46,454 nt of DNA from Arthrobacter sp. HY1533 (GTDB taxonomy: Bacteria; Actinomycetota; Actinomycetes; Actinomycetales; Micrococcaceae), in the NCBI RefSeq assembly GCF_027568515.1, contig NZ_JANKZF010000010.1, positions 1 through 46,454 of the forward strand, given 5' to 3'. Made by a program: the position numbers and the translations under genes. This document shows, one piece after another, positions 1 to 12,102 of the stretch (the stretch's first letter is position 1; every line of letters begins with the position of its first letter). The notes below the pieces were generated by a model. It saw only the letters and a list, made by a program, of their open reading frames with translations. It did no database searches and had not been told where the DNA came from.

Positions 1-2267
1 ACGGACACGCCGGAGGCCAGCAGCTGGGTGCGGGGCCCGTCGTGTTCGCTCTTCTTGAGCAGGTAGATGCCCTTGTTGATGCCCTCGACGTCGATGTTCT
101 CCGGTGCCTTGGGCTGGCTGATCGGCTCGTTGTACACGGTGATGTAGTACATGACGTTGGGATCGGTGGAATCCGGTCCGTACATGCGCTCGATGCCGGC
201 GCGCACGATCGCCCCGATTTCGTAGCCGTAGGCGGGGTCGTAGGTGATCACGGCCGGGTTGGTGGAGGCCAGGATCGGGGAGTGGCCGTCGGCGTGCTGC
301 AGGCCTTCACCGGTGAGGGTGGTGCGTCCTGCGGTGGCGCCGATGATGAAGCCGCGGGTCATCTGGTCCCCGGCGGCCCAGAAGGAATCGCCGGTGCGCT
401 GGAAGCCGAACATGGAGTAGAAGACGTAGAACGGGATCAACGGTTCGCCATGGGTGGCGTAGGCGGTGCCGGCGGCGGTGAACGCTGCCACGGAACCGGC
501 CTCGTTGATGCCGGCATGCACGATCTGCCCCGAGATGGACTCCTTGTACGCCAGGACCAGGTCGCGGTCCACGGAGAGGTAGTTCTGCCCGTTGGGGTTG
601 TAGATCTTCGCGGTCGGGAAGAACGCGTCCATGCCGAAGGTGCGGGCCTCATCGGGGATGATCGGCACAATGCGCTTGCCGAACTCCTTGTCCCGCATCA
701 AGTCCTTGAGCAGCCGCACGAACGACATGGTCGTGGCGGCCTGCTGCTTGCCCGAGCCGCGGTTGGCGACCTCATAGGTCTTGTCCCCGGGCATTTCCAG
801 CTCGGTGTGCTTGCTGCGGCGTTCGGGCAGGAACCCGCCCAAGGCGGCGCGGCGTTCCATGAGGTACTGGATTTCCGGGGTGTCGGCTCCGGGGCGGTAG
901 TACGGGGGACGGTACGGGTCCGCTTCCAGGGTCTCGTCCGTGATGGGCAGGCGCAGGTGGGTGCGGAAGTCCTTGAGGTCCTGCAGGGTCAGCTTCTTCA
1001 TCTGGTGCGTGGCGTTGCGCGCCTCGAAGTGCGTGCCCAGGCCGTAACCCTTGACCGTGTGGGCCAGGATCACCGTGGGCTTGCCCTTGAACTCGGTGGC
1101 AGCCTTGTAGGCGGCGTAGACCTTGTGGTAGTCGTGCCCGCCGCGCTTGAGGTTCCAGACCTCGTCATCGGAGAGGTGCGCGACGAGTTCCTTGGTCTGC
1201 GGGGTCTTCCCGAAGAAGTGCTCCTTGACGAAGCCGCCGGACTCGGCCTTGTACGTCTGGTAGTCACCATCGAGGGTGGTGTTCATGACATCGACCAGGG
1301 AACCATCGGTGTCCCGGGCCAGCAGGTCATCCCATTCGCGGCCCCAGAGGACCTTGATGACGTTCCAGCCGGCGCCGCGGAAGAATGCTTCCAGTTCCTG
1401 GACGATCTTGCCGTTGCCGCGCACCGGGCCATCGAGGCGCTGGAGGTTGCAGTTGACCACGAAGTTCAGGTTGTCGAGCTTGTCGTTCGCGGCGAGCTGG
1501 AGCAGGCCGCGTGATTCGGGCTCGTCCATTTCACCATCACCGAGGAACGCCCAGACCTGCTGGTCGGAGGTGTCCTTGATGCCGCGGTTGTGCAGGTAGC
1601 GGTTGGACTGGGCCTGGTAGATCGCGTTCATCGGGCCAATGCCCATGGACACGGTGGGGAATTCCCAGAACTCGGGCATCAGGCGCGGGTGCGGGTAGGA
1701 GGAGAGGGCGTGGCCTTCCTTGGAGCGTTCCTGGCGGAAGCCGTCCATGTCTTCTTCGGAGAGGCGGCCTTCCAGGAAGGCGCGGGCGTACATGCCGGGG
1801 GAGGCGTGGCCCTGGAAGAAGATCTGGTCCCCGCCGCCGGGGTGGTTCTTGCCGCGGAAGAAGTGGTTGAAGCCCACCTCGTACAAGGTCGCAGCACCGG
1901 CATAGGTGGAGATGTGCCCACCAACACCGATCTCCGGGGTCTGTGCGCGGTGCACCATGACGGCGGCGTTCCAGCGCAGCCAGGCGCGGTACTTGCGCTC
2001 GATCTCCTCGTTGCCCGGGAAAACAGGTTCCTGGTCAGCCGGGATCGTGTTCACATAGTCGGTGGTGGTGACCATGGGCACGCCAACACTCTGTGCGCCG
2101 GCCCGCTGCAGCAGGCTACGCATAATGAACTGGGCACGCTCAGTGCTGCGTTCGGAGATCAACGAGTCGAAGGACTCAAGCCATTCGGCTGTCTCTTCCG
2201 GATCGCGATCAGGCAGCTGGTTGGTCAACCCGCTGAGGATATGGGAATTGTCTTCTCGCAAGAACAT
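1..2267 (-). CDS. aceE: pyruvate dehydrogenase E1 component, homodimeric (3' end missing)
   Basis: This is the thiamine-diphosphate E1 subunit of the pyruvate dehydrogenase complex, which decarboxylates pyruvate and passes the acetyl group to the E2 lipoyl domain. About 755 of the usual roughly 910 residues are present and the reading frame runs off the left edge of the window. The thiamine-diphosphate motif is visible as [10 protein letters not shown] near residue 240, followed by [11 protein letters not shown]. The sequence resembles the large homodimeric AceE of actinobacteria and Gammaproteobacteria, not the alpha/beta form. I chose the ATG at 2267-2265, which reads MFLREDNSH and has an AAAGAGGA ribosome binding site 4 bases upstream. 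No E2 or E3 gene is adjacent, as is usual in this group. The 227 bases before the NCS1 promoter hold its leader; a TACAAT at about 2422-2427 on this strand could be a -10 box, but I see no good -35. Confidence 0.95.
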
Positions 2268-2493
2268 CGGTCCTCTTTCAGTGGTGCATTCGCGGCCTCC
2301 CTGGTGGTGAGGCGGCGCCTACCCGCTGGCTGCGCGTTCGCCGTCGAACGTGGCGCGGGCGTTGGGCCATCCAAACGAAAGCCGCTGTCACGGTTTTCGT
2401 CAGATGGAAAGAAAATATTGTATGCCGAGATTACTGCCGATGGCCCCAGGATGCAAAATTCTCGGTTTGTGACAGATTTTCAGGCTTCAGCCA

Positions 2494-2522
2494 TTGACTT
2501 GATGTGAGCTGACTCATACGAT
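2494..2522 (+). promoter_or_regulatory. sigma70-type promoter of the NCS1 permease unit
   Basis: TTGACT (2494-2499) and TACGAT (2517-2522) are separated by exactly 17 bases, which is a near-consensus vegetative promoter. The -10 box lies inside a CATACGA element (2515-2521). CATAC recurs at 2529 and 2553, so a repressor bound there would cover the -10 box and the start of the transcript. Confidence 0.6.
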
Positions 2523-2546
2523 TGTTTTCATACCTCAAAAGTTTTC

Positions 2547-2563
2547 TTCCACCATACGAAAAT
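2547..2563 (+). promoter_or_regulatory. candidate operator shared with the urate oxidase operon
   Basis: The sequence TTCCACCATACGAAAAT matches TTCCACGATGCGAAATT upstream of uraD (9348-9364, minus strand) at 14 of 17 positions. The core is an imperfect palindrome, TTYCRC-N3-GYGRAA-like. It lies about 20-35 bases after the predicted transcription start, a position suited to repression. No regulator gene is next to it, and the protein that would bind is unknown. Confidence 0.45.
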
Positions 2564-2683
2564 CCTATTTGTTGCGGAGCTATCATGGACGCTACTTCCA
2601 CAAAAAATACCCACCCCGTTGAGGCAGGTGCCGCCCCTCAAGGGAGACGGGCAGCGCTGTCTGATCCAAGAAGAGGAACCACC

Positions 2684-4189
2684 TTGTCTGAACACAGCAG
2701 TTCCACCACGGTGTCAGAGCCACCCTTTGCAACCCCCGAGGGTTACACGCTCAGTGCCAGCCTGTTCAACCAGGACCTTGCGCCGACCAAGATGAAGGGC
2801 CGGCGCTGGTCCAGCTACAGCATCTTCACGCTGTGGGCCAACGATGTGCACAGCCTGGGCAACTACGCCTTCGCCATTGGATTGTTCGCCATCGGCCTGG
2901 GCGGCTGGCAGATCTTGCTGGCCCTGGGCATCGGAGCCGTACTCCTCTTTGGCCTGTTGAACTTCTCGGGATTCATGGGATTCAAGACAGGCGTTCCGTT
3001 CCCGGTCATGAGCCGCATCAGCTTCGGCATCAAGGGCGCACACATCGCATCCCTGCTCCGTGGCGGCGTCGCAATCGTCTGGTTCGGCGTGCAGACCTTC
3101 CTGGCCTCGGTGGTCCTGCGGGTCATGCTCACGGCACTGTTCCCCGCATTGCATGATTGGGACACCAACTCCATCCTGGGCCTTTCCACCCTCGGCTGGC
3201 TGACCTTCCTGGCGCTTTGGGTTGTCCAGGTTGTCATCGTCAGCTTCGGCATGGACATGATCCGCAAGTACGAGGCCTTCGCCGGTCCCATCATCCTTGT
3301 CACCATGGCAACCATCGCCATCTGGATGTTCATCCAGGCCGGTGGATCCATCGCCTGGCAGACCAACCAGGGCCTGCAGGGCGCTGAAATGTGGCGCACC
3401 ATCTTTGCCGGCGGCGCCCTGTGGGTTGCCATCTACGGCACGTTCGTCCTGAACTTCTGCGACTTCACCCGCTCCGCCAAGTCCGCCAAGTCAATTGTCC
3501 GCGGCAACTTCTGGGGCATCCCGATCAACATGCTCCTCTTCGGCGCAATTGTGGTTGTCATCTCCGGTGCCCAGTTCAAGATCGACGGCACCATCATTGA
3601 AAGCCCCTCCGACATTGTCCAGACAATCCCCAACACCTTCCTGCTGGTTGTCGCCTGCCTGGCACTGCTCATCCTCACCATCGCCGTGAACCTGATGGCC
3701 AACTTCGTGGCCCCCGTCTACGCACTGACCAACCTGTTCCCGCGCCACCTGAACTTCCGCAAGGCAGCCCTGGTCAGCGCAATCATCGGCCTGGTCATCC
3801 TGCCCTGGAACCTCTACAACAACCCCGTGGTCATCGTGTACTTCCTGGGCGGCCTCGGTGCCCTCCTGGGCCCGCTGTTCGGCGTCATCATGGCCGACTA
3901 CTGGATCATCCGCCGCGGCCAGGTCAACGTCCCGCACCTCTACACCAAGGCAGACGGCGCGGACTACCACTACAAGCGGGGCGTCAACCCCCGTGCCGTC
4001 ATCGCCCTGATCCCGGCATCCGTGGTGGCCATCCTGATCGCCTTTATCCCGCAGCTGCACGAACTGTCCTCCTTCTCTTGGTTCTTCGGGGCCGGGCTGG
4101 CCGCCATCACCTACTACTTTGTGGCCGACCGCAAGGGGCCGTTCCACAACGTCTCCGGTGAGCCCATCGCAGTCGACAGCGTCCACTAG
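2684..4189 (+). CDS. NCS1 family nucleobase/hydantoin:cation symporter
   Basis: This is a 12-helix secondary transporter of the NCS1 family (Mhp1, PucI, allantoin, cytosine and uracil permeases), which imports nucleobases or hydantoin-type compounds with Na+ or H+. Family signs are the N-terminal GYTLSASLFNQDLAPT, then SIFTLWANDVHSLGNYAFA in helix 1 and SRISFGIKG in the loop before helix 3. The length is about 501 residues, typical of the family. I chose TTG at 2684, preceded by AAGAGGA with 6-base spacing. The in-frame ATG at 2585 also has a GGAG site, but the 33 codons between them use rare codons such as AGA and look like leader. The downstream racemase-like gene follows after 27 bases, so the two form an operon. 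That neighbour suggests a hydantoin or allantoin substrate, but this is inference. Confidence 0.85.
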   Translation: MSEHSSSTTVSEPPFATPEGYTLSASLFNQDLAPTKMKGRRWSSYSIFTLWANDVHSLGNYAFAIGLFAIGLGGWQILLALGIGAVLLFGLLNFSGFMGFKTGVPFPVMSRISFGIKGAHIASLLRGGVAIVWFGVQTFLASVVLRVMLTALFPALHDWDTNSILGLSTLGWLTFLALWVVQVVIVSFGMDMIRKYEAFAGPIILVTMATIAIWMFIQAGGSIAWQTNQGLQGAEMWRTIFAGGALWVAIYGTFVLNFCDFTRSAKSAKSIVRGNFWGIPINMLLFGAIVVVISGAQFKIDGTIIESPSDIVQTIPNTFLLVVACLALLILTIAVNLMANFVAPVYALTNLFPRHLNFRKAALVSAIIGLVILPWNLYNNPVVIVYFLGGLGALLGPLFGVIMADYWIIRRGQVNVPHLYTKADGADYHYKRGVNPRAVIALIPASVVAILIAFIPQLHELSSFSWFFGAGLAAITYYFVADRKGPFHNVSGEPIAVDSVH

Positions 4190-4216
4190 CCGCGATCCCC
4201 CCTGGAAAGGCAGACC

Positions 4217-4963
4217 ATGCGCATTCTTGTAGTCAACGTCAATACCACGGCATCCATGACGGAATCCATCGCTGAGCAGGCCCGCTCAGTGGCCGCCCCC
4301 GGCACGGAGATCATCGCCCTCACCCCGCGCTTCGGTGCGGAATCCTGTGAAGGGAACTTCGAAAGCTACCTGGCCGCCGTTGCCGTCATGGACGCAGTGC
4401 AGTCCTACCCGGAACCCTTCGACGCGGTCATCCAGGCGGGCTACGGGGAACACGGGCGGGAAGGCTTGCAGGAACTGCTGGACGTCCCGGTTGTCGACAT
4501 CACCGAAGCCGCCGCCAGCACCGCCATGTTCCTGGGCCACAAGTACTCTGTGGTCACCACCCTTGACCGGGCCGTTCCGCTCATCGAGGACCGGCTCAAG
4601 CTGGCCGGGCTGACCGACCGCTGCGCATCTGTCCGGGCCAGCGGCATGGCCGTCCTGGAACTTGAGGAACAGCCGGAGCGTGCCGTTGAGGCAATTGTCC
4701 GCGAGGCCGAGCTGGCCGTCACCGTGGACAAGGCGGAGGTCATCGTCCTTGGCTGCGGCGGCATGGCCGGGCTCAACGAGCAGGTCCGGGAGCGCACGGG
4801 TGTTCCCGTGGTCGACGGCGTCGCTGCCGCGGTCACGATCGCCGAGTCGCTGGTCCGGTTGGGCCTGTCCACCTCCAAGGTGCGCACCTACGCGCCACCC
4901 CGGCCCAAGGCCTTCACCGGCTGGCCGGTTCCGGCCGGCGCGGCCGAATTGATCGGGCGCTAG
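4217..4963 (+). CDS. hydantoin/allantoin racemase-like protein (Asp/Glu racemase superfamily) lacking the first catalytic Cys
   Basis: At 248 residues this protein belongs to the Asp/Glu/hydantoin racemase superfamily, in which two facing cysteines exchange the substrate proton. The second cysteine is present in LGCGGM (Cys180). The first site, normally ACFGDPG in hydantoin racemase, reads AGYGEHG, so Gly75 replaces the cysteine. That Gly/Cys pairing is the arrangement known for arylmalonate decarboxylase (Gly74/Cys188), which decarboxylates and does not racemise. Other family features such as DVPVVDITEAA and PVVDGVAAAV are intact. The start at 4217 has an AAAGG site (4205-4209, spacing 7). 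It is cotranscribed with the NCS1 permease and ends before a strong terminator. Likely roles are a one-cysteine decarboxylase or isomerase, or a divergent racemase. The substrate cannot be read from the sequence. Confidence 0.75.
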   Translation: MRILVVNVNTTASMTESIAEQARSVAAPGTEIIALTPRFGAESCEGNFESYLAAVAVMDAVQSYPEPFDAVIQAGYGEHGREGLQELLDVPVVDITEAAASTAMFLGHKYSVVTTLDRAVPLIEDRLKLAGLTDRCASVRASGMAVLELEEQPERAVEAIVREAELAVTVDKAEVIVLGCGGMAGLNEQVRERTGVPVVDGVAAAVTIAESLVRLGLSTSKVRTYAPPRPKAFTGWPVPAGAAELIGR

Positions 4964-4975
4964 AAAAACCCAGGG

Positions 4976-5014
4976 ACGGGACCGGCGGAACACTTCCGCC
5001 GGTCCCGTCTTTTT
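4976..5014 (+). terminator. rho-independent terminator of the permease/racemase unit
   Basis: A perfect 15-base-pair stem (4976-4990 with 4994-5008) has a 3-base loop CAC and is followed by CTTTTTTG-like T-rich sequence. It separates the permease/racemase unit from the downstream SDR gene. Confidence 0.85.
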
Positions 5015-5069
5015 GTGCCTTCACGGCAAATGCACGCAACAATGGAGCCACCTTCAATAAGGAGCAGAT

Positions 5070-5831
5070 GTGAACAAGGAAAACACTCCAGCACGGGTCA
5101 TGGTTGTGACGGGCGCCGGCTCCGGCATTGGCCGCGCCGTGGCGCAGGCCGCACTGGCGGAAGGGTATGCCGTGGTCCTGGCCGGCCGCCGGGAAGCTGA
5201 ACTTTCCGACGTGGCCGGCGGCCACCCGCTGGCCCTGGCAGTCCCGACGGACGTCACCGAGCATGCGCAGGTGGAGAATTTGTTCAGCCAGGCCGTGGAA
5301 CGCTTTGGCCGGGTGGATGTCCTGTTCAACAATGCCGGAACCTTTGGCCCCGCCAAGTCCGTGGATGAGGTTTCCCTGGCCGACTGGAATGCCACCGTGG
5401 CCGTCAACCTCACCGGCTCCATGCTGTGCGCGGCCGCCGCCATCCGGGCCATGAAAAACCAGCAACCCCAAGGTGGGCGGATCATCAACAACGGCTCCAT
5501 CTCCGCCCACTCCCCGCGGCCCAAGTCGGCCGCCTACACAGTCACCAAGCACGCCATCAGCGGCCTGACCAAGTCAATTGAACTGGACGGGCGGGCCTAC
5601 GGCATCAGCTGCGGCCAGATCGACATCGGCAACACCGCAACCTCCATCATGTCCACCCTGGATGTTGCCACCGGTGCCCTGCAGGCCAATGGGGACCTGC
5701 TGGTGGAGCCCACCTTCCCCGTGGCCGAGGCCGCCCGGACCGTCATGTTCATGGCCGGCCTCCCGGCGTCGGCAACCATTGGCCAGCTGGTCATCACGGC
5801 CGCCGGCATGCCCTTCATTGGGCGGGGCTGA
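5070..5831 (+). CDS. short-chain dehydrogenase/reductase (classical SDR)
   Basis: This 253-residue NAD(P)-dependent oxidoreductase has the classical SDR layout: TGAGSGIG cofactor loop (residues 14-21), NNAG (87-90), catalytic Ser143, and Tyr156-x3-Lys160 in YTVTK. The GTG start at 5070 has AAGGAG with 5-base spacing. The ATG two bases earlier is followed at once by TGA and cannot be used. A terminator separates it from the racemase-like gene, so it probably has its own promoter, although none is clear in the short gap. It lies between two purine-related transporters, so a role in the same catabolic setting is possible. SDR substrates cannot be predicted from sequence alone. Confidence 0.85.
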   Translation: MNKENTPARVMVVTGAGSGIGRAVAQAALAEGYAVVLAGRREAELSDVAGGHPLALAVPTDVTEHAQVENLFSQAVERFGRVDVLFNNAGTFGPAKSVDEVSLADWNATVAVNLTGSMLCAAAAIRAMKNQQPQGGRIINNGSISAHSPRPKSAAYTVTKHAISGLTKSIELDGRAYGISCGQIDIGNTATSIMSTLDVATGALQANGDLLVEPTFPVAEAARTVMFMAGLPASATIGQLVITAAGMPFIGRG

Positions 5832-5860
5832 CTCTCCAGGCTCCCCACCAAGAAGCGTTC

Positions 5861-5901
5861 GACGGCGGTGGGCCTCCCTCACGGGGCGGCCCACCGCCGT
5901 C
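5861..5901. terminator. bidirectional hairpin between convergent SDR and NCS2 genes
   Basis: A perfect 14-base-pair stem (5861-5874 with 5888-5901) has a 13-base loop. It sits in the 80-base gap between two convergent genes. There is no strong T-run on either side, so its role as terminator comes from position. Confidence 0.55.
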
Positions 5902-5911
5902 GTACTTGGGT

Positions 5912-7411
5912 TTAGTGGTGGCTTGAACCGTCGGGTGCCAGCGGGATCTCTCCCGTCACGGGCACCTCCCGGCCGTCGACGTCGATCAACTTGCCGTCCT
6001 CACACCGGTCGCCGTCCTGCAGGTGCTCCAGCAGCTCGGCCGTGATCATCCGGTCGGTGCCGGCGGCAAACACGGACGGGTTCTCCGGGTTCCCGCGCTT
6101 GAGATGGTTGAACAGCAGGTTCAACAGGATTGCCATGATGGCCGCCGAGGAAATTCCGGAGTGGAAGATGGTGCCCACCCACTCCGGGAACTGGTCGTAG
6201 AAGGTGGGGGCGGCAATGGGCAGCATGCCAAAGCCCACAGAGGTGGAGACAATGACCAGGTTCATGTTGTTGCGGTAGTCCACCTGGGCCAGTGTGCGGA
6301 TGCCGCTGGCAGCCACCGTGCCGAACAGGACGATTCCTGCCCCGCCCAGCACCGACAGGGGAACGGCGGCAACCACCCGCCCCAGGATGGGCAGCAGCCC
6401 CAACACCACCAGGATCACCCCGCCCGCCGCAACCACGAAGCGGCTCTTGACCCCCGTGACGGCAACCAAGCCTACATTCTGGGCAAAGGCGCTCTGGGTG
6501 AAGGAGCCGAACACGGGTGAGACAAGGCTTGAGGCCATGTCGGCGCGCAGCCCTGCGGCAATGCGCTTGGAATCCACCTTGGTGTCCACAATCTGCCCCA
6601 CCGCCAGGATGTCCGCCGTGGTTTCCGTCAGGATCACCAGGACAACAATGAGCATGGAGATGATGGCGGCAACATTGAAGGTGGGCAGCCCCAAATGGAA
6701 CGGCATGGGCAGTTCAAAAATGGCGCCATGGCCCACCCCGGAAAAGTCCGCCTTGCCCATGAAGATGGCAGCCACGGTGCCAATGACCATGGCGAGCAGG
6801 ATGGAGAGCCGGGAGATGGTGGAACTGCCCAGCTTGCTCAGCAGGAGCACCACGGCCAGGGTGAACGCGGCGAGCATGATGTTTGAGACGCTGCCGTAGT
6901 CGGCGGCTTTCTTGTTGCCTCCCATGGACCAGTTTGCCGCCACGGGCATCAGGGTCAGCCCAATGGTGGTGATGACGCTGCCGGTAACCACGGGCGGAAA
7001 GAATTTCACAATCTTGGAAAACAATGGCGCAATGAGAAGCCCGAACGCTGCCGAGACAATGACAGCACCAAAGACCGCCTGGATGCCGCCGCCGCCAACA
7101 ATGGCCACCATGGTGGCCACGCTGGCGAACGAGACGCCCTGGACCAGCGGCAGTTGTGAACCGAAGAACGGCAGCCCAATGGTTTGCAGGAGGGTTGCCA
7201 GCCCGCCCATGAAGAGGGCCGCGGCGATCAGCACGCCGATGTCGGCCGATGACAGGCCGGCGGCCTGCCCAATGATGAGCGGGACGGCGATGATGCCGCC
7301 GTACATGGTCAATACATGTTGGAATCCATAGGCGAAACTTGCGCCAATTCCGAGCTTTTCATCCTCGGGCCGGGTGGGAACTGCGGCCGTGGAACGTGAA
7401 ATTTTGGTCAT
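5912..7411 (-). CDS. NCS2 family urate/xanthine permease
   Basis: This is a 499-residue membrane transporter of the NCS2 (NAT) family with about 14 hydrophobic segments, which brings oxidised purines into the cell. The NAT signature is present as QNVGLVAVTG, a form typical of the urate/xanthine branch (UacT, PucJ/PucK, UapA). The start at 7411 has a perfect AAGGAGGT site with 5-base spacing. It lies downstream of the urate oxidase gene on the same strand but behind a hairpin at 7475-7504, so it is probably a separate or partly read-through transcript. Together with uraD, uraH and uricase it forms a route from external urate to allantoin. Urate is the best guess for the substrate; xanthine is the alternative. 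Confidence 0.88.
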   Translation of the reverse strand: MTKISRSTAAVPTRPEDEKLGIGASFAYGFQHVLTMYGGIIAVPLIIGQAAGLSSADIGVLIAAALFMGGLATLLQTIGLPFFGSQLPLVQGVSFASVATMVAIVGGGGIQAVFGAVIVSAAFGLLIAPLFSKIVKFFPPVVTGSVITTIGLTLMPVAANWSMGGNKKAADYGSVSNIMLAAFTLAVVLLLSKLGSSTISRLSILLAMVIGTVAAIFMGKADFSGVGHGAIFELPMPFHLGLPTFNVAAIISMLIVVLVILTETTADILAVGQIVDTKVDSKRIAAGLRADMASSLVSPVFGSFTQSAFAQNVGLVAVTGVKSRFVVAAGGVILVVLGLLPILGRVVAAVPLSVLGGAGIVLFGTVAASGIRTLAQVDYRNNMNLVIVSTSVGFGMLPIAAPTFYDQFPEWVGTIFHSGISSAAIMAILLNLLFNHLKRGNPENPSVFAAGTDRMITAELLEHLQDGDRCEDGKLIDVDGREVPVTGEIPLAPDGSSHH

Positions 7412-7474
7412 AGCGGACCTCCTTGTCTGCTTACCCTTATTAAGCGAGAACCCGCTTTGGGAGTTGTCGCTGCG

Positions 7475-7504
7475 GGCAGGCGGGGGTTGCAGCCCCCGCC
7501 TGCC
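7475..7504 (-). terminator. terminator-like hairpin after the urate oxidase operon
   Basis: A perfect 12-base-pair GC-rich stem (7475-7486 with 7493-7504) has a 6-base loop and lies 30 bases after the uricase stop. It lacks a T-tract, so termination may be partial and allow some transcription of the permease. Confidence 0.5.
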
Positions 7505-7534
7505 TCTGTGCAGGGCCGTTATGGCCCGGCCGTG

Positions 7535-8446
7535 TTAGCAAAAGCCGGCGATGCCGTCCCAGGCGTTTCCGGCATCCGAGGCGTCCTCGCGCAGGACCGT
7601 GGCCTCGATCAGCCCGTAGGGCCGGTCTGCCGCGAAGAAGACCTCATTGGGGTTGTCCAGGCCAAACGGGGACAGGTCCACCACAAAGTGGTGCTTGTTG
7701 GGCATGGAAAACTTGATCTCGTCAATTTCCGGATGGGCCACAAGCACCTTTTTGCCCATGTCGAAGAGCGTCTGCTGCAGGGCTGTGGAGTAGTTCTCCG
7801 TGAAGCCTTCCAGCAACAGGGACTTGACGTCGTCGTAGGACTTGTTGAAGTCAACCTCCGCCACGGCGGCCGGGTTGAACCGCCAGCGCGCGGCCACATC
7901 GGTGGCCAGGATGCGGTCGTTGGTGGGTGCAAGCGTGGTGTACTTGTCCACCGGGTAGCCCTCGAAGCCCGATTGGGTGGACTTCAGGACGGTGAGGTCG
8001 GCCAGGCCGGAAATCACCTGGGTGTTGGGGCCGTCCTTGACCACCACGGCGGTGCGCACTTCCTGCCCGTTGCGCACGAATGCATGGTTGTGGGCCTGGC
8101 CGTGCGCCTCGATGCGGTCCCACTTGTACTGTTCGGCGGCCCAGCGCCCGCCGCTCACCCAGGCAAACTCCGAGGTGAAGTGCTCGCCCAGGCGCAACAG
8201 AAACGCCTCGGGGGAGCCCACTCCGGCACGGGCGAAGGCGTAGACAGTGTTTTTCTGGGTGTCCGTGGCCACGACGTGGGCGTTGTCGCCTTCGAGGTGG
8301 GCGGCCAGGAAGTCGCCGCGCAGCTGCGAGGTTACGTTGAGGTCCTCGATCTCGTGGCGCTCCGTGTCCCTGGTGATTTTCACTAGCCGGACCTCGGCCT
8401 TGCCGTACTGGTTGGCCCCCAGGACAATGTTGTTGTTCTCGTTCAT
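7535..8446 (-). CDS. urate oxidase (uricase)
   Basis: This is a cofactor-free urate oxidase that converts urate and O2 to 5-hydroxyisourate and H2O2. The 303-residue protein has the N-terminal QYGKAEVRLVK segment with the catalytic Lys, ATDTQKNTVYAF with the partner Thr, WRFNPAAVAEVDF, and NKHHFVVDL near the C-terminus, and ends in IAGFC. It closely resembles my recollection of A. globiformis uricase. The ATG at 8446 has an AGAGGAAG site. The stop of the HIU hydrolase gene ends 2 bases upstream, so the genes are translationally linked. Longer upstream reading in this frame crosses the HIU hydrolase gene and is not real. It is the last gene of a uraD-uraH-uricase operon, which supplies the two enzymes that process its unstable product. 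Confidence 0.97.
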   Translation of the reverse strand: MNENNNIVLGANQYGKAEVRLVKITRDTERHEIEDLNVTSQLRGDFLAAHLEGDNAHVVATDTQKNTVYAFARAGVGSPEAFLLRLGEHFTSEFAWVSGGRWAAEQYKWDRIEAHGQAHNHAFVRNGQEVRTAVVVKDGPNTQVISGLADLTVLKSTQSGFEGYPVDKYTTLAPTNDRILATDVAARWRFNPAAVAEVDFNKSYDDVKSLLLEGFTENYSTALQQTLFDMGKKVLVAHPEIDEIKFSMPNKHHFVVDLSPFGLDNPNEVFFAADRPYGLIEATVLREDASDAGNAWDGIAGFC

Positions 8447-8448
8447 GG

Positions 8449-8790
8449 CTAGCTTCCTCTGTACGTTGAAAAGGCGAATGGGCTCAGCAGCAGCGGCACG
8501 TGGTAGTGCTCTTGCGCCGCGTCGAGCGTGAAGGTCAGTGACACTTCCGGGAAGAAGGTTTCCGCGCCGATGCCGGCGAAATAGGTGCCTGTGTTGAAGC
8601 GGAGGCGGTAGGTCCCGCTGGGCAGCCGCTCCGGGCCCAGGTCCTTGGCCCGTCCCTGGGCGTCGGTGGTTGCCGAAGCGAGCTGTTGCCACCGCCCGTC
8701 GGTCAACGCGTCAAGCTCCACTTCGACGCCGGTTGCCGGCAATCCCCGCGTGGTGTCCAAAACGTGGGTGGTGATGTGCGAAACGCTCAT
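8449..8790 (-). CDS. uraH: 5-hydroxyisourate hydrolase (transthyretin-like)
   Basis: This 113-residue protein hydrolyses 5-hydroxyisourate, the uricase product, to OHCU. It has the full set of transthyretin-related hydrolase signs: an N-terminal HVLD with the catalytic His, an internal Arg-containing strand, HYHVPLLLSPF, and the C-terminal tetrapeptide YRGS that marks the enzymes as opposed to vertebrate transthyretin. Its start codon overlaps the uraD stop by 4 bases (ATGA), and its stop lies 2 bases before the uricase ATG. This is tight coupling within the operon. Confidence 0.96.
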   Translation of the reverse strand: MSVSHITTHVLDTTRGLPATGVEVELDALTDGRWQQLASATTDAQGRAKDLGPERLPSGTYRLRFNTGTYFAGIGAETFFPEVSLTFTLDAAQEHYHVPLLLSPFAFSTYRGS

Positions 8791-9308
8791 GGGGCAATGA
8801 CCTCCTTGAGCCGCAGCAGCGCGATTTCCCGCAGCTGCCCGGCAACGATGGACTCTTCGGCCTCGGGTGGGTTTGTCAGGCGCTCGCGCAGGGCGGAGAG
8901 GATGTCAGCCGGAGAGCGGCCAAGGGCCCGGATGAGGAACACCCGGCCGAATTTTTCCTCGTAGGCGCGGTTTCCGTCCAGGAGCTGGGCTGTGACCGCG
9001 GCGTCGGCGGGGTCTATCCCCGCCTGTTCCGCGGCGGAGAGCGCCGCCTCCCGTCCGCTTCCGGGCAGCCGCTCCCCAATCCGGGGATGGTGTGCCAATG
9101 CGGAGGCGACCTCCCCGGCGGTGAACGGCGAGGCGGCAAGCTGGGCCTCGGCGAAGACGTGCTCCGCCGAGGCATAGGGCCGGCTGGCAATGATCTGGTT
9201 GATCCACCGGTCCACGTCGAGGCAGGGGCGCAGCGCCTCGGCCAGGACAATTGCGGGGGATTCGTTGAATTCGTTCAACAGCATGGCAAGTTGATCCTTG
9301 CTTTTCAT
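8787..9308 (-). CDS. uraD: OHCU decarboxylase
   Basis: This protein decarboxylates 2-oxo-4-hydroxy-4-carboxy-5-ureidoimidazoline to S-allantoin, the final step of the three-enzyme urate route. It shows the HHPRIGERLPGS segment with the catalytic His and the family block NRAYEEKFGRVFLIRALGRS. At 173 residues its length is normal. The ATG at 9308 has a poor ribosome binding site. A second ATG at 9284, reading MLLNEFNESP, has AAGGA 10 bases upstream and gives a start closer to that of relatives, so the true start may be there. It is the first gene of the operon and lies just downstream of the candidate operator. Confidence 0.94.
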   Translation of the reverse strand: MKSKDQLAMLLNEFNESPAIVLAEALRPCLDVDRWINQIIASRPYASAEHVFAEAQLAASPFTAGEVASALAHHPRIGERLPGSGREAALSAAEQAGIDPADAAVTAQLLDGNRAYEEKFGRVFLIRALGRSPADILSALRERLTNPPEAEESIVAGQLREIALLRLKEVIAP

Positions 9309-9332
9309 CTGCTGGCATCCACGGCGTAGGCT

Positions 9333-9364
9333 ATGCGAATCTCAATAAATTTCGCATCGTGGAA
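9333..9364 (-). promoter_or_regulatory. candidate operator of the uraD-uraH-uricase operon
   Basis: Two overlapping elements are visible. The first is an inverted repeat ATGCGAA-N11-TTCGCAT (9333-9357). The second is the minus-strand sequence TTCCACGATGCGAAATT (9348-9364), which matches the element at the NCS1 promoter at 14 of 17 positions. Both lie between the probable promoter and uraD, as expected for a repressor released by urate or an intermediate. Confidence 0.5.
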
Positions 9365-9380
9365 CTGTTATTTCAGCGTA

Positions 9381-9414
9381 TGAATAGTGAACCGCATCAC
9401 ATTTGAAATGTCAA
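9381..9414 (-). promoter_or_regulatory. possible promoter of the uraD operon
   Basis: A consensus -35 TTGACA lies at 9414-9409 on the minus strand. The best -10 candidates are TTCACT at 17-base spacing and TATTCA (9386-9381) at 22 bases, so the pairing is imperfect and activator help is possible. A CATACG element (9382-9377) like those at the NCS1 promoter adjoins it. Confidence 0.35.
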
Positions 9415-9454
9415 CCGTGGGGTCCGTGTATTGCGGAGGATTGCCCGCAGGGCG

Positions 9455-9922
9455 CTACAGTCCCAGCTGCGTGCGCAGATGGGCCACATGGCCGTCTGCA
9501 CTGACGCCGTACTCGGCTGTTCGCACGGTCCCGTCGGCATTGACTACCACTGTGGAGCGCAGCGTGCCCATGACTGTCTGGTTGTTGACCTGCTTCTCGC
9601 CCCACGCGCCCCAGGCTTCGGCAACCCGGTGGTCCTCGTCGGAGAGGAGCGGGAAGTTCAGGCCAAAGTCATCGGAAAACGCGGCCAGCGCCTCGGGCGC
9701 GTCGGTGGAAACTCCCAGCACGTCCACGCCTGCCGCCTGCAGGGCGGCCAGGCTGTCGCGAAAATCGCAGGCCTCAGTGGTGCAGCCGGGCGTGGCCGCC
9801 TTGGGGTAAAAGTAGATGATCGCCTGCCGTCCGGCGTAGTCGGACAACGAAACTGAGCGGCCGGCTGCGTCGGGAAGGGTGAATTCGGGTGCAGCCTGGC
9901 CGGGGGTGAGTGCGGTTGACAT
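9455..9922 (-). CDS. bcp: peroxiredoxin of the BCP/PrxQ type
   Basis: This 155-residue thioredoxin-fold peroxidase reduces H2O2 and organic hydroperoxides using thiols. The peroxidatic and resolving cysteines are five residues apart in TPGCTTEACDFRD, the PrxQ arrangement. The ATG at 9922 has TTGAGGAG 4 bases upstream. It has its own promoter, whose -35 lies in the end of the upstream gene. It stands directly before the uricase operon, whose product is H2O2, so protection during urate oxidation is a plausible shared purpose, although BCP proteins are general. Confidence 0.93.
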   Translation of the reverse strand: MSTALTPGQAAPEFTLPDAAGRSVSLSDYAGRQAIIYFYPKAATPGCTTEACDFRDSLAALQAAGVDVLGVSTDAPEALAAFSDDFGLNFPLLSDEDHRVAEAWGAWGEKQVNNQTVMGTLRSTVVVNADGTVRTAEYGVSADGHVAHLRTQLGL

Positions 9923-9973
9923 GGGGCTCCTCAAGTTTCACAAGATGGAATCAAATTGTTGTTGGGTGAAATA

Positions 9974-10002
9974 AGAGTAGGACCGTCACCGGGTTCGGTC
10001 AA
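9974..10002 (-). promoter_or_regulatory. promoter of the peroxiredoxin gene
   Basis: On the minus strand TTGACC (10002-9997) and TACTCT (9979-9974) are separated by 17 bases. The -35 box overlaps the stop codon of the upstream gene (10001-9999), so the promoter is embedded in the end of that coding region. Confidence 0.55.
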
Positions 10003-10922
10003 AGGGCGTCCACGGCAGCGCGCAACCGCTCGCGCAGCACTGCCGCGTCGGCACTGAAGCCGCGCTGGGCCGCCACGTAGTCGGCCTTGCCTGCCGCCGT
10101 CTCAATGCGGATCGGCGGATATCCCCACTCCGCGAGGTCGTAGGGGGAAGCCTGCATGTCCATGGCACGAATGTGCCATGAAAGCTCAAAGCAGTCCATG
10201 ACCAGCTCGCTGGGCAGTGCGGGTGAGAGCTTGTAAGCCCACTTGTACAGGTCCATGTTGGCGTGCAGGCAGCCGGGCTGCTCCATGTCGCGCTGATTTT
10301 CCCGGGTGGGTGTCAGCTCGTTGAGGCCTGTGGCCTGCGGGGTGTAAAAGCGGTAGGCGTCAAAGTGCGTGCAGCGGATCCTGTTGTCCTCCACCACCTG
10401 GTCCGTGCCGCCGGAGCCGAGGCGCAGTTCCAGGTATTCGTGCCGCACCGCATTGGCTTCCTGCTTGTAGACCATGGCCCATTCGTGCAGCCCAAAGCAG
10501 CCAAATTGCGCCGGGCGTGCGGCCGTGCGGCCCAAGATGATCCGGGCGAAGTCCACTGCCTCCCGGCGCTGTTCCAGGAACTTTTCCGTGTCAAGGATTG
10601 CGGCGGGGCCCGCGGCGGGCGCCCCTGCCGCCTGGAGCTCCGCCTCGTTGGCCGCGCGGTAGAACTTCCAGTCCAGGCGCTCGGCAGCGGCCGCCCCGGT
10701 GAGCACAACCCCGGCGCCCGGGTGCCAGCGCGAGAGCTGGCCCGGCTTCTGGGTGTAGTACGTGAAAAGAAAGTCCTCCACCGGGTGCTTTTTCCCGGCC
10801 GAACGGCGCGCAAGATACGGCTCCGCGTAGCGGTTCACGCGTGCCTTGTGGGCTGCGGCCCTGGCCTGCCAGTCGAGTTCGGCCAGCGTCATGGAGGCCG
10901 GGGACGGCAGTGCGGGGTTCAT
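9999..10922 (-). CDS. conserved actinobacterial protein, often labelled 3-methyladenine DNA glycosylase
   Basis: The 307-residue protein matches a conserved actinobacterial family that I recall being labelled 3-methyladenine DNA glycosylase. Recognisable blocks are KHPVEDFLFTYY near residue 45, FGCFGLHEWAMVYK, HFDAYRFYTPQA, EQPGCLHANMDLYKW and MDMQASPYDL near the C-terminus. I see no helix-hairpin-helix or other standard glycosylase motif, so that name should be treated as unproven. The many conserved His, Asp, Cys and Trp residues suggest an enzyme, perhaps metal-dependent. It begins 3 bases after the stop of the OhrR-type regulator and is cotranscribed with it, linking it to a thiol-oxidation signal. 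Confidence 0.7.
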   Translation of the reverse strand: MNPALPSPASMTLAELDWQARAAAHKARVNRYAEPYLARRSAGKKHPVEDFLFTYYTQKPGQLSRWHPGAGVVLTGAAAAERLDWKFYRAANEAELQAAGAPAAGPAAILDTEKFLEQRREAVDFARIILGRTAARPAQFGCFGLHEWAMVYKQEANAVRHEYLELRLGSGGTDQVVEDNRIRCTHFDAYRFYTPQATGLNELTPTRENQRDMEQPGCLHANMDLYKWAYKLSPALPSELVMDCFELSWHIRAMDMQASPYDLAEWGYPPIRIETAAGKADYVAAQRGFSADAAVLRERLRAAVDAL

Positions 10923-10925
10923 GCC

Positions 10926-11420
10926 TTAATTATCCGCCATCGTGGCGGCGGCAGCGTCGGCCGGTGACTGCCCGGCGTCGTCCGCGTGGGTGGCGGCCGC
11001 GATGAGGGACATCATGCTGCGGTGCAGCGCCATGGCCCCCTCCCGGTCCAGGCCGAGCCGGGCCATCATGGTTCCGGGCACCGCCAGGGCCTTGTTGCGC
11101 AGTGCGGCGCCGGCGGGTGTGAGGTTGATGGCCAGGGCGCGCTCGTCGACGCCGTCCCGGGTCCGCGTGACGTACCCCAGCGACTCGAGCCGCTTGAGCA
11201 GGGGGGAGAGGGTGGCCGATTCCAGCAGGAGGGCGCCGCCCAGGTCCTTGACGCGGCGTGGCGACTGCTCCCACAGTGCAAGCATGACCAAATACTGCGG
11301 GTGTGTCAGCGAAAGCTCGGCAAGCACCGGCTTGTAGGCGGCAATGACGCTGCGGGAGGCCACGCTCAAGCCAAAGCACAGCTGGCGCTCCAGCAGCAGG
11401 TCGTTCTCCGTGGTGTCCAT
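10926..11420 (-). CDS. OhrR-type MarR family redox regulator
   Basis: This 164-residue winged-helix repressor has the hallmark of OhrR: the reactive cysteine in RQLCFGL falls at residue 15, as in Bacillus subtilis OhrR. The core LTHPQYLVMLALWEQ, LESATLSPLLKRLESLGYV and DERALAINLT blocks follow the OhrR pattern. OhrR normally senses organic hydroperoxides and represses ohr, but no ohr gene is next to it. The ATG at 11420 has AAGGAG with 7-base spacing. A perfect 22-base palindrome lies 16 bases upstream and is the likely autoregulatory operator. It is cotranscribed with the following conserved gene and divergent from a small ORF. Confidence 0.88.
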   Translation of the reverse strand: MDTTENDLLLERQLCFGLSVASRSVIAAYKPVLAELSLTHPQYLVMLALWEQSPRRVKDLGGALLLESATLSPLLKRLESLGYVTRTRDGVDERALAINLTPAGAALRNKALAVPGTMMARLGLDREGAMALHRSMMSLIAAATHADDAGQSPADAAAATMADN

Positions 11421-11435
11421 TGACACGCTCCTTGA

Positions 11436-11457
11436 GATAGTTAGTGCACTAACTATC
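11436..11457. promoter_or_regulatory. perfect 22-base palindromic operator for the OhrR-type regulator
   Basis: The sequence is a perfect inverted repeat centred on GTGCAC, with half-site GATAGTTAGTG. Palindromes of this kind are bound by MarR-family dimers. It is between the regulator and the divergent small ORF, and could control both directions. Confidence 0.75.
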
Positions 11458-11535
11458 AGGGTACTATGGATAACGCAGCCACCAATAATCGGGCCAGAAG
11501 CAACGCTTCGGACCCCCGACCCCAAGGAATGCCAC

Positions 11536-11760
11536 ATGCCCAAGATGCCCCTGGTCCACAGATTCATGCGGTTCACCGGCCACCTGCGCTACATCCTGGG
11601 ACCCGCCAGCAGCAGCCCGCTGGATCATGAGATGACCCCGGAGAACAAGGCACTGCTGGTCTCCCAGCAGGCCGCGGCGGAGGCGTTCGTGACGGTGACG
11701 CGCGCCGACGGCAGCACCTACCTGGTCCCGAAGGACCCCAACGACAAGTCGCTGCGCTAG
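11536..11760 (+). CDS. small hypothetical protein divergent from the OhrR-type regulator
   Basis: The 74-residue protein beginning MPKMPLVHRF has a basic N-terminal region, a short hydrophobic stretch RYILGPASSSP and a hydrophilic C-terminus. I recognise no family. The ATG at 11536 has AAGGA with 7-base spacing, and codon use is like its neighbours, so it is probably real. It is transcribed away from the OhrR-type gene past the shared palindrome, which may regulate it. Confidence 0.6.
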   Translation: MPKMPLVHRFMRFTGHLRYILGPASSSPLDHEMTPENKALLVSQQAAAEAFVTVTRADGSTYLVPKDPNDKSLR

Positions 11761-11880
11761 CCCGCTCCCGCTCCCGCTCGGGCAGCCCCGTCCCGCGACC
11801 CGGGGCCTTTATGGGCCGCCGGGCGTAGAATTAAGCGACGTGGATCACACGTTTTGCTTCCCTGCGGAGAGGGGGTGTTG

Positions 11881-12102
11881 ATGATGACGAGCGGCGAGAA
11901 TTTCGTGGGCAAGTTCATGCACGCCACGGAGAAGTTCCAAAAAGTGTTCGGCCCGGCCGACCAGGGCGACTCGGATTCGCCCGTGGTGCACCGCCACGAC
12001 GAATTTGAGGAAAACAGCCAGGAGCAGCTGTCCCACTTTGAGGAGCGGACGGATTCTTCGGGCCACCATTACGCAGTCCGCAAGGAAGAAGCGGCAGAGT
12101 AG
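11881..12102 (+). CDS. small acidic hypothetical protein
   Basis: The 73-residue product starting MMTSGENFVGKFMHATEK is rich in Glu, Asp and His, with no membrane segment. A GAGAGGGGG site lies about 5 bases before ATG 11881; ATG 11884 is an alternative. It contains VVHRHDEFEE and ends RKEEAAE. I do not recognise its function. The coding pattern and ribosome site support it as real, and it is followed by a long palindrome. Confidence 0.6.
   Translation: MMTSGENFVGKFMHATEKFQKVFGPADQGDSDSPVVHRHDEFEENSQEQLSHFEERTDSSGHHYAVRKEEAAE

Follow-up and report, generated by a model that had tools for sequence, protein, structure and literature searches.

What joins two transcription units that lie on opposite strands of one purine-related gene block? 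In a 46,454-nucleotide stretch of the Arthrobacter sp. HY1533 genome (NZ_JANKZF010000010.1, positions 1–46,454 of the forward strand; hereafter the window), a plus-strand unit with an NCS1-type permease and a racemase-family gene stands opposite a minus-strand operon of uraD, uraH and urate oxidase. A sequence-only reading had proposed that one operator-like element places both units in one regulon. The two 17-mers on which it relied, 2547–2563 (+) and 9348–9364 (−), are where that reading had put them and are identical at 14 of 17 bases. Both lie shortly downstream of plausible promoters, whose boxes were assigned by eye and whose letters were verified. The same reading overlooked that the uraD motif is one strand of a covarying RNA structure, which we call R1.

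Leader RNAs upstream of uraD

The upstream regions of 80 uraD loci, the best 80 of 272 confirmed relatives, were compared. Most of these leaders contain two long conserved blocks around a loop, TGCTGAAATAACAGTTCCAYGATRCG ... CGYATAGCC..CRCCRTGGATGCCAGCA. The blocks pair with each other in three helices, P1 (GCUG/CAGC), P2a (UCCAYG/CRUGGA) and P2b (AURCG/CGYAU), and the loop within P2b is free in sequence and length. R1 of the window, at 9306–9381 (−), consists of P1 GCUG/CAGC, J1 with AAAUAACAGU opposite UGCC, P2a UCCACG/CGUGGA, J2 AGCC..CRCC, and P2b AUGCGAA/UUCGCAU with its variable loop. The J1 strands, AAATAACAGT and TGCC in the DNA, are the same in all 83 distinct R1 leaders, and the junction looks like a ligand pocket.

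Alignment A1, made with MAFFT from 30 of 63 distinct R1 sequences, was not fitted to any structure. RNAalifold, supplied with no structure, found the same three helices in A1, together with two pairs beside P2a. In A1 98.3% of the cells are paired; covariation scores 0.168, versus 0.101 for shuffled alignments, and none of 500 shuffles scored as high. Alignment A3, of 89 chosen R1 matches (83 distinct), was fitted to the R1 model and so leans towards it; by sequence, A3 lacks only L127 and the chance match L158 of the 49 A2 matches, and L165 and L166 are also outside it. A3 has 18 pairs with 98.9% of cells paired, and nine pairs have changed on both sides, one in P1 and four each in P2a and P2b. 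Each of five covariation measures exceeds all 500 shuffles. In L148 and L150, for example, P2a UCCACG/CGUGGA is exchanged for UCCGGC/GCCGGA, and in L159 a G-C pair of P1 has become A-U, giving UACUG/CAGUA.

R1 is tied to uraD. The R1 model matches 65 of the 80 loci, each time just upstream of uraD, with a lowest score of 76.8 bits and a next best score of 16.2; two of the 65 loci, L017 and L027, carry the name Microbacterium. Among 295 genomes of the window's family, the Micrococcaceae, 57 gave a match, or 56 after G254 was dropped. The G254 match (E 0.0098, 25 bits) was rejected as chance, as it lies in GC-rich, coding-looking sequence of a genome lacking uraD, and none of 11 query proteins was found in the 8 kb around it (L158). 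R1 occurs in 6 of 296 genomes of a class sample and in 5 of 349 in the family of G581, taken as Microbacteriaceae, where one copy is degenerate (L166, 36 bits); the uraD leader there seems to have turned into a plain hairpin. At the loci from the genome search, uraD comes next wherever downstream sequence is present (L133, L154 and L155 end at contig ends), and for the remaining family matches uraD follows on the same strand, as seen when coordinates were compared by eye. Within the window's genus, R1 is present in 17 of 17 uraD-bearing genomes and absent from all six that lack uraD. Extra copies lie at contig ends in G018 and at second uricolytic clusters in G012 and G019; in these last two congeners the cluster is doubled together with its leader (L151/L152 and L156/L157). 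In 44 of 65 R1 loci, such as L014 and L031, uraD-uraH stands without uricase within the stretch covered, and many of these loci lie near apparent purF and purM genes, named by eye.

Downstream of R1, the true start of uraD is probably the ATG at 9284–9282, as judged by comparison of homologues, after the Shine–Dalgarno sequence AAGGAT (9299–9294). A hairpin, GCAAG-GATCAA-CTTGC at 9286–9301 (−), surrounds this Shine–Dalgarno sequence. R1 leaders commonly enclose the start codon or Shine–Dalgarno sequence in such a hairpin (CAAGC-AUGNA-GCUUG and arm variants). Its mean energy over 58 distinct leaders is −7.26 kcal/mol, versus −5.11 with shuffled upstream parts (sd 0.27; reached by 0 of 100) and −6.32 with swapped upstream parts (sd 0.22; 0 of 200), which suggests translational control of uraD. 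At the other end of R1, a start codon followed by CTG-AAA-TAA is found at the 5' end in 79 of 83 distinct leaders (e.g. L013:9914, +) and is lost in the window.

Six of the 15 loci without R1 (L066, L082, L083, L084, L086 and L088) share a second leader, R2, of the form AAACATCGARTCAAG-hairpin-GGTCAAGGGTGTTCAGCG. The R2 model was built from five of them, with L082 excluded, as it is cut at a contig end. R2 is present in 78 of the 295 family genomes, spread over 10 genera, and in none of the 56 R1 genomes (e.g. L086:3607–3677, +, and L167–L196). A phylum sample of 346 genomes, which contained no known positive, gave no R2 match. All 30 fetched R2 loci lie immediately upstream of uraD, uraH and uricase. 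Among 50 further matches, 32 stand just before uraD among the matches listed (by eye), 16 are in genomes whose uraD position is outside the matches listed, and two lie away from a listed uraD (G067:C19 at a contig end, and G215:C14, degenerate). In G215 a degenerate R2 (L241:2769–2839, +) precedes an apparent uraD relic ahead of xanthine dehydrogenase-like genes, as judged by eye.

The inner hairpin of R2 covaries at all five of its pairs, each changed on both sides, with a score of 0.642 versus 0.223 for shuffles (0 of 500); these values come from 30 distinct sequences of 37 rows, including the cut L082 and a 12.8-bit chance row. For the closing stem, pairing with its own partner has a mean of −13.8 kcal/mol, versus −9.1 with the partners of other leaders (0 of 5000 permutations; 22 distinct of 35). 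Its own partner is the best in only 4 of 22, because the arms are similar. RNAalifold adds a helix, AACAUC:GGUGUU, which is invariant in five sequences. A second pairing is open to the R2 strand GGGUGUUCAGC, because it complements GCUGACACCC and variants of that sequence, which stand immediately ahead of the start codon. Over 31 distinct leaders this start-masking pairing has a mean of −16.8, versus −9.0 for shuffled sequences; for no leader did more than 4 of 200 shuffles do as well, and the helix appears in at least five of eight printed minimum-energy folds. Judged by sequence, the two pairings of this strand cannot form together, an arrangement typical of switches that are turned ON by stabilising the upstream fold.

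Of the 295 family genomes, 190 carry uraD (E ≤ 1e-15), and all 56 R1 and all 78 R2 genomes fall within these 190 with no overlap, so that 134 of 190 carry one or the other, as compared by eye. Apart from the chance match in G254, no genome lacking uraD has either leader, and neither was found in 56 uraD-bearing genomes. Just past the promoter, as seen by eye, R1 and R2 have the 5' stretch GAAATAA.A.TTCC.C in common, and they may have descended from one leader.

The guanine-class riboswitch fold is a three-way junction, whereas R1 is a rod. Searches against Rfam 15 (4227 families) gave no match for window positions 1–12000 at E ≤ 1 or for 9200–9500 at E ≤ 5, and none at the leaders of L009 and L024. 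The R2 leaders scanned gave no match at or above threshold; a bip IRES match at L086 (E 1.3) is sub-threshold and was taken as chance. An unrelated SAM-IV riboswitch (RF00634) was detected at L084:7243–7358 (+), in effect a positive control for the search. Xanthine-sensing variants of the guanine riboswitch are associated with allantoinase and xanthine dehydrogenase genes (PMC9295807).

The closest likeness to R1 is the NMT1, or xanthine, riboswitch, a class defined in part by its binding of xanthine or uric acid, which is likewise a P1-J1-P2a-J2-P2b rod with conserved junctions and a link to oxidised purines (PMC7373994, PMC8266621). Its control is described in the same papers as probably translational, and their accessible text reports it only in Proteobacteria and as an OFF switch. 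The conserved NMT1 letters, G7-A8-A9-G10-C11, A39-U40 and G35 (J1 being G7-A8-A9-G10-C11-G12 in crystal numbering; PMC8266621), are absent from R1 when compared by eye, and the invariant R1 junctions AAAUAACAGU and UGCC differ from them. The Rfam scans, in a release assumed to contain NMT1, led us to reject membership of R1 in NMT1 or any other Rfam family. Because the letters, the taxa and the reported direction all differ and there is no Rfam match, we do not file R1 as a member of NMT1. A literature check, which included a term search of the main text of PMC11109978, PMC8632094 and PMC7266159, found no urate-operon RNA of Actinobacteria among the papers listed; a mention in the 2017 catalogue of 224 RNA motifs is possible.

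The shared operator-like motif and its candidate regulator

The probable promoter of the NCS1 unit lies at 2494–2522 (+), with −35 TTGACT (2494–2499) and −10 TACGAT (2517–2522), assigned by eye and compared with L090–L092. That of uraD lies at 9386–9414 (−), with TTGACA (9414–9409) and TTCACT (9391–9386), also by eye; identical boxes are found in L160, L161 and L151. The operator-like sites themselves are TTCCACCATACGAAA at 2547–2561 (+) and TTCCACGATGCGAAA at 9350–9364 (−), the latter overlapping the 5' strand of R1. In the window, the pattern TTCCACNATRCGAAANT gave five matches with up to three mismatches, where 0.75 were expected and none of 100 shuffles reached five. The genome-wide search (4,304,416 bases) that the sequence-only reading had called for returned eight matches with up to two mismatches, two of them perfect and both of these in the window, versus four for a reversed control pattern. 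Since the pattern came from those two sites, these counts show rarity and not independent enrichment.

Both window sites agree with the IclR core KTYCRY-N3-RYGRAM (by inspection, with W3 relaxed to N3 and the outer G/C omitted), and by the same relaxed consensus so do 74 of 83 distinct R1 members. The full group-1 IclR operator consensus is given as GKTYCRYW3-4RYGRAMC, and TTCCACNATRCGAAA fits its core (PMC8222616); an IclR gene also lies in the allantoin cluster of this genome. Unlike those operators, the uraD operator overlaps an RNA helix, and its regulator is a candidate only. In the nine R1 members that break the relaxed consensus, pairing persists in P1, in P2a and in the inner portion of P2b. 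Because the consensus departs while the pairing stays, both constraints, operator and RNA pairing, seem to act on this stretch. The operator element is also present in uraD promoters without R1 (L078, L080, L083, L084, L086 and L088), and it stands apart from the R2 closing stem in L084, L086, L088, L167 and L168; thus, it is not a mere by-product of RNA pairing. The NCS1 promoters of congeners carry cleaner palindromes, TTCCACATTATGGAA in L096 and TTCCGCATTGTGGAA in L104, and L105 has one as well.

A first position matrix was built from ten sites of other genomes and scanned over 209 kb, in which many loci had been picked for one-mismatch matches. It scored 21.2 before bcp, 20.4 at uraD, 19.2 at NCS1, 18.4 and 14.8 in the hyi promoter and 16.6 in the IclR intergenic region. 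Because a training site from G021 is identical to the window NCS1 site, and because selected loci were in the scan, the analysis was rerun with five sites (L096, L104, L105, L078 and L080) over the window and contig-27 stretches, 75 kb chosen for gene content. The first three ranks were bcp (19.3), uraD (18.3) and NCS1 (17.4), followed by the intergenic region between IclR and malic enzyme genes (17.2) and two hyi-promoter sites (16.7 and 16.3). The bcp site, a palindrome at 9936–9950 with no strand assigned (TTTCACAAGATGGAA), has the top score among the loci scanned, and bcp adjoins the H2O2-producing uricase operon. A weaker site between aceE and NCS1, TTTCGTCAGATGGAA at 2395–2409 (+), scored 15.2 with the first matrix and 11.4 with the second (rank 9); a similar sequence is present in L090–L092.

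The two hyi-promoter sites are 21 bp apart, ahead of hyi-glxR-gcl-glycerate kinase-allB, where hyi is below its family cut-off. On contig 27, an IclR gene is divergent from apparent malic enzyme and malate synthase genes (by eye) and from a ureidoglycine aminohydrolase gene. The genome has 11 IclR-type genes, and only this one shares a contig with an allantoinase that passes its cut-off. Gene annotation bears out the earlier statement that the 2.5–9.4 kb block itself holds no regulator gene. The idea of one regulon survives in part: a shared operator-like element and a candidate IclR gene were found, and a purine/allantoin regulon is plausible. Part of the likeness, however, is maintained by RNA pairing, so it would be too simple to regard the NCS1 and uraD sites as a pair of copies of a single DNA element. 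The E. coli AllR regulon is similar in that allantoin and glyoxylate genes are under an IclR-family protein (PMC8222616), whose effector is glyoxylate (PMC10163214). The AllR motif, KTTGGAAWAWTWTTCCAAC, has half-sites in the order TTGGAA...TTCCAA (PMC8222616), whereas the order in the window is the opposite, TTCC...GGAA, as compared by eye.

A second element of the sequence-only reading, CATACG repeats flanking both promoters, did not hold up. The copy at 2515–2520 overlaps the −10 box, the next reads CATACC, and the third lies within the motif. At uraD, ATACG occurs in three of 83 distinct R1 leaders (the window, L160 and L161), while 79 have ATG, GTG or TTG and L159 has ATA; as the spelling is not conserved across leaders, CATACG was rejected as a repeated element. 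Separately, TGTGA-N6-TCATA is present in the spacer of the NCS1 promoter at 2503–2518 (+), and a TGTGA-N6-TYACA-like element lies between −35 and −10 in the NCS1, uraD, several R1 and many R2 promoters, as seen by eye. This spacer element is CRP/GlxR-like.

Genes of the block

The NCS1 protein (2585–4189, +; PF02133) has the allantoin permease family PRK11375 as its best NCBIfam match (296.6 bits, below the cut-off of 620) and is probably an allantoin permease. The next gene (4217–4963, +) encodes a member of the Asp/Glu/hydantoin racemase family (PF01177, with no NCBIfam match), probably an allantoin racemase. In congener G010 (L206), the gene order is NCS1, racemase, allantoinase. Because that operon includes allantoinase, the plus-strand unit is most simply read as allantoin uptake and racemisation, and a hydantoin route separate from purine breakdown was rejected on the same ground. 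The block had been described earlier as a urate-to-allantoin module with a path for a related ring compound; the L206 gene order indicates that this compound is probably allantoin itself. In six species other than that of the window (L013, L022, L049, L151, L160 and L161), NCS1 and racemase genes likewise adjoin the uricolytic operon. A short-chain dehydrogenase gene follows (5070–5831, +; PF00106), and it adjoins pbuX also at loci in which no NCS1 and racemase genes were found.

On the minus strand are a xanthine permease-type NCS2 transporter of the pbuX subfamily (5912–7411; TIGR03173, 501.4 bits versus a cut-off of 414.15), urate oxidase (7535–8446; TIGR03383), hydroxyisourate hydrolase, uraH (8449–8790; TIGR02962), and OHCU decarboxylase, uraD (8787–9308; TIGR03180). 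Beyond the uraD promoter is a bcp/PrxQ-type thiol peroxidase gene (9455–9922, −; NF006960), which commonly adjoins uraD in synteny. It is plausible that bcp removes the H2O2 made by uricase.

Control of uraD: proposal, alternatives and meaning

One mark of a metabolite riboswitch is that the leader of a metabolic operon folds in a conserved, covarying way, and both R1 and R2 do so. Because the shared motif is, at uraD, an arm of a conserved folded leader, the uricolytic genes there may be under both an RNA sensor and a DNA-binding protein. We favour, with moderate confidence, a two-layer control in which an IclR-type operator is combined with a metabolite-sensing R1 leader that urate or a closely related compound probably turns on. 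In this proposal, an IclR regulator, most likely that of contig 27, would bind TTYCRC-N3-RYGRAA just after the promoters of the NCS1/racemase and uraD-uraH-uricase-permease units, and would probably have further sites at the glyoxylate/allantoinase operon and at bcp. Its action would probably be relieved, as the example of E. coli AllR suggests, by an allantoin- or glyoxylate-type metabolite. The uraD transcript would begin with R1, whose helices P1 and P2a would be locked when urate, or a compound close to it in purine breakdown, binds. Locking would alter access to the hairpin-folded start region, and translation would rise when substrate is present. Four points here are inferences: that a ligand binds, which ligand it is, that it turns the switch ON, and which protein is the regulator.

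Several observations weigh against this proposal. In A1, two of the five covariation measures do no better than shuffles: four pairs changed on both sides versus 3.1 in shuffles, a count that 150 of 500 attained, and the further pair types number 8 versus 8.6, attained by 497 of 500. Half of the 18 R1 pairs in A3 have no change on both sides, and P1 rests on one compensatory change. The degenerate R1 at L166:1501–1580 (−) keeps a P2a strand without J1 or J2. No alternative helix by which the aptamer would compete with the start was common to the R1 leaders examined by eye, and no terminator was seen in R1 by eye. As R1 was found only with uraD, the context indicates purine breakdown and not one ligand. 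On the side of the operator, genome-wide matches with up to one mismatch number 25 versus 20 for the reversed control, and scores roughly equal to that of the NCS1 site were obtained at three loci that look unrelated. With this weak enrichment and these unrelated high scorers, the wider regulon is suggestive only.

If the likeness of the NCS1 and uraD sites came from chance or from AT-rich promoter composition, with no shared regulator, the near equality of motif and reversed-control counts would be expected, as would high-scoring sites at unrelated-looking genes (L215, L217 and L223, each at least 19 with the ten-site matrix; genes judged by eye). We regard this as unlikely, though it deserves some weight, since the only two perfect genome-wide matches are both at purine operons, and the six promoter sites fill the first six places of 75 kb in the five-site scan, at 16.3 or above versus 14.2 for the next. 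It is also improbable that the conserved uraD leader is only a DNA operator, a composite protein-binding site with inverted half-sites, and not an RNA. Of 83 distinct R1 members, 74 do have a 5' arm that agrees with the relaxed IclR motif, and the operator persists in uraD promoters without R1 (L078, L080) and apart from the R2 stem (L084, L086, L088, L167, L168). However, the arms covary in register across a loop of freely varying length, L148 and L150 lose the operator consensus and keep the RNA pairing, and the invariant J1 strands AAATAACAGT and TGCC are largely outside the operator.

Two further explanations were weighed. R1 could be a protein-binding or stability leader, acting for instance through an autoregulating enzyme or an RNA-binding protein, instead of a metabolite riboswitch. 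The link of R1 to uraD in the loci checked fits autoregulation as well, but R1 is kept in the 44 of 65 loci that have no uricase in the stretch covered. Furthermore, R2, with a different sequence and a start-masking alternative, stands at the same gene, which favours metabolite control, and we judge a protein-binding or stability role distinctly unlikely. Part of the conservation could also have another reason, which counts against our proposal: the AUG-CUG-AAA-UAA frame (Met-Leu-Lys-stop), begun by ATG, GTG or TTG in 79 of 83 distinct R1 leaders, lies near the expected transcript start (by eye) and might control uraD as a micro-ORF, by leaderless initiation or stalling. Yet the window, L160, L161 and L159 all lack its start codon, and P1 of L159 shows a compensatory change; the AAA and UAA codons show no synonymous variation in 83 leaders, and conservation extends far past the stop. 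Control of uraD by this micro-ORF is therefore very improbable in our view.

We therefore return to the combination of operator and metabolite-sensing leader. Its broader form, which we advance tentatively and as somewhat less than an even prospect, is that Micrococcaceae and some Microbacteriaceae have two undescribed riboswitch classes, R1 and R2, which take the same leader position in different genera, probably respond to urate or to the products formed directly from it and turn uricolysis ON, and that in R1 genomes the IclR operator lies within the 5' strand of the aptamer. If this is true, one stretch of DNA in R1 genomes serves a repressor and an RNA sensor together. The discoverers of the xanthine riboswitch found no genes for degradation of oxidised purines among its targets, in the text accessible, and noted that activating switches might be expected (PMC7373994). 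R1 and R2, from another phylum, are candidates for that missing activating group. Should they bind urate, they would be naturally occurring RNA sensors of the gout metabolite, and because R1 is a short fold, its binding could be tested directly with little difficulty. The overlap of operator and aptamer strand, and the replacement of one leader by another at a single gene, bear on the origins of riboswitches.

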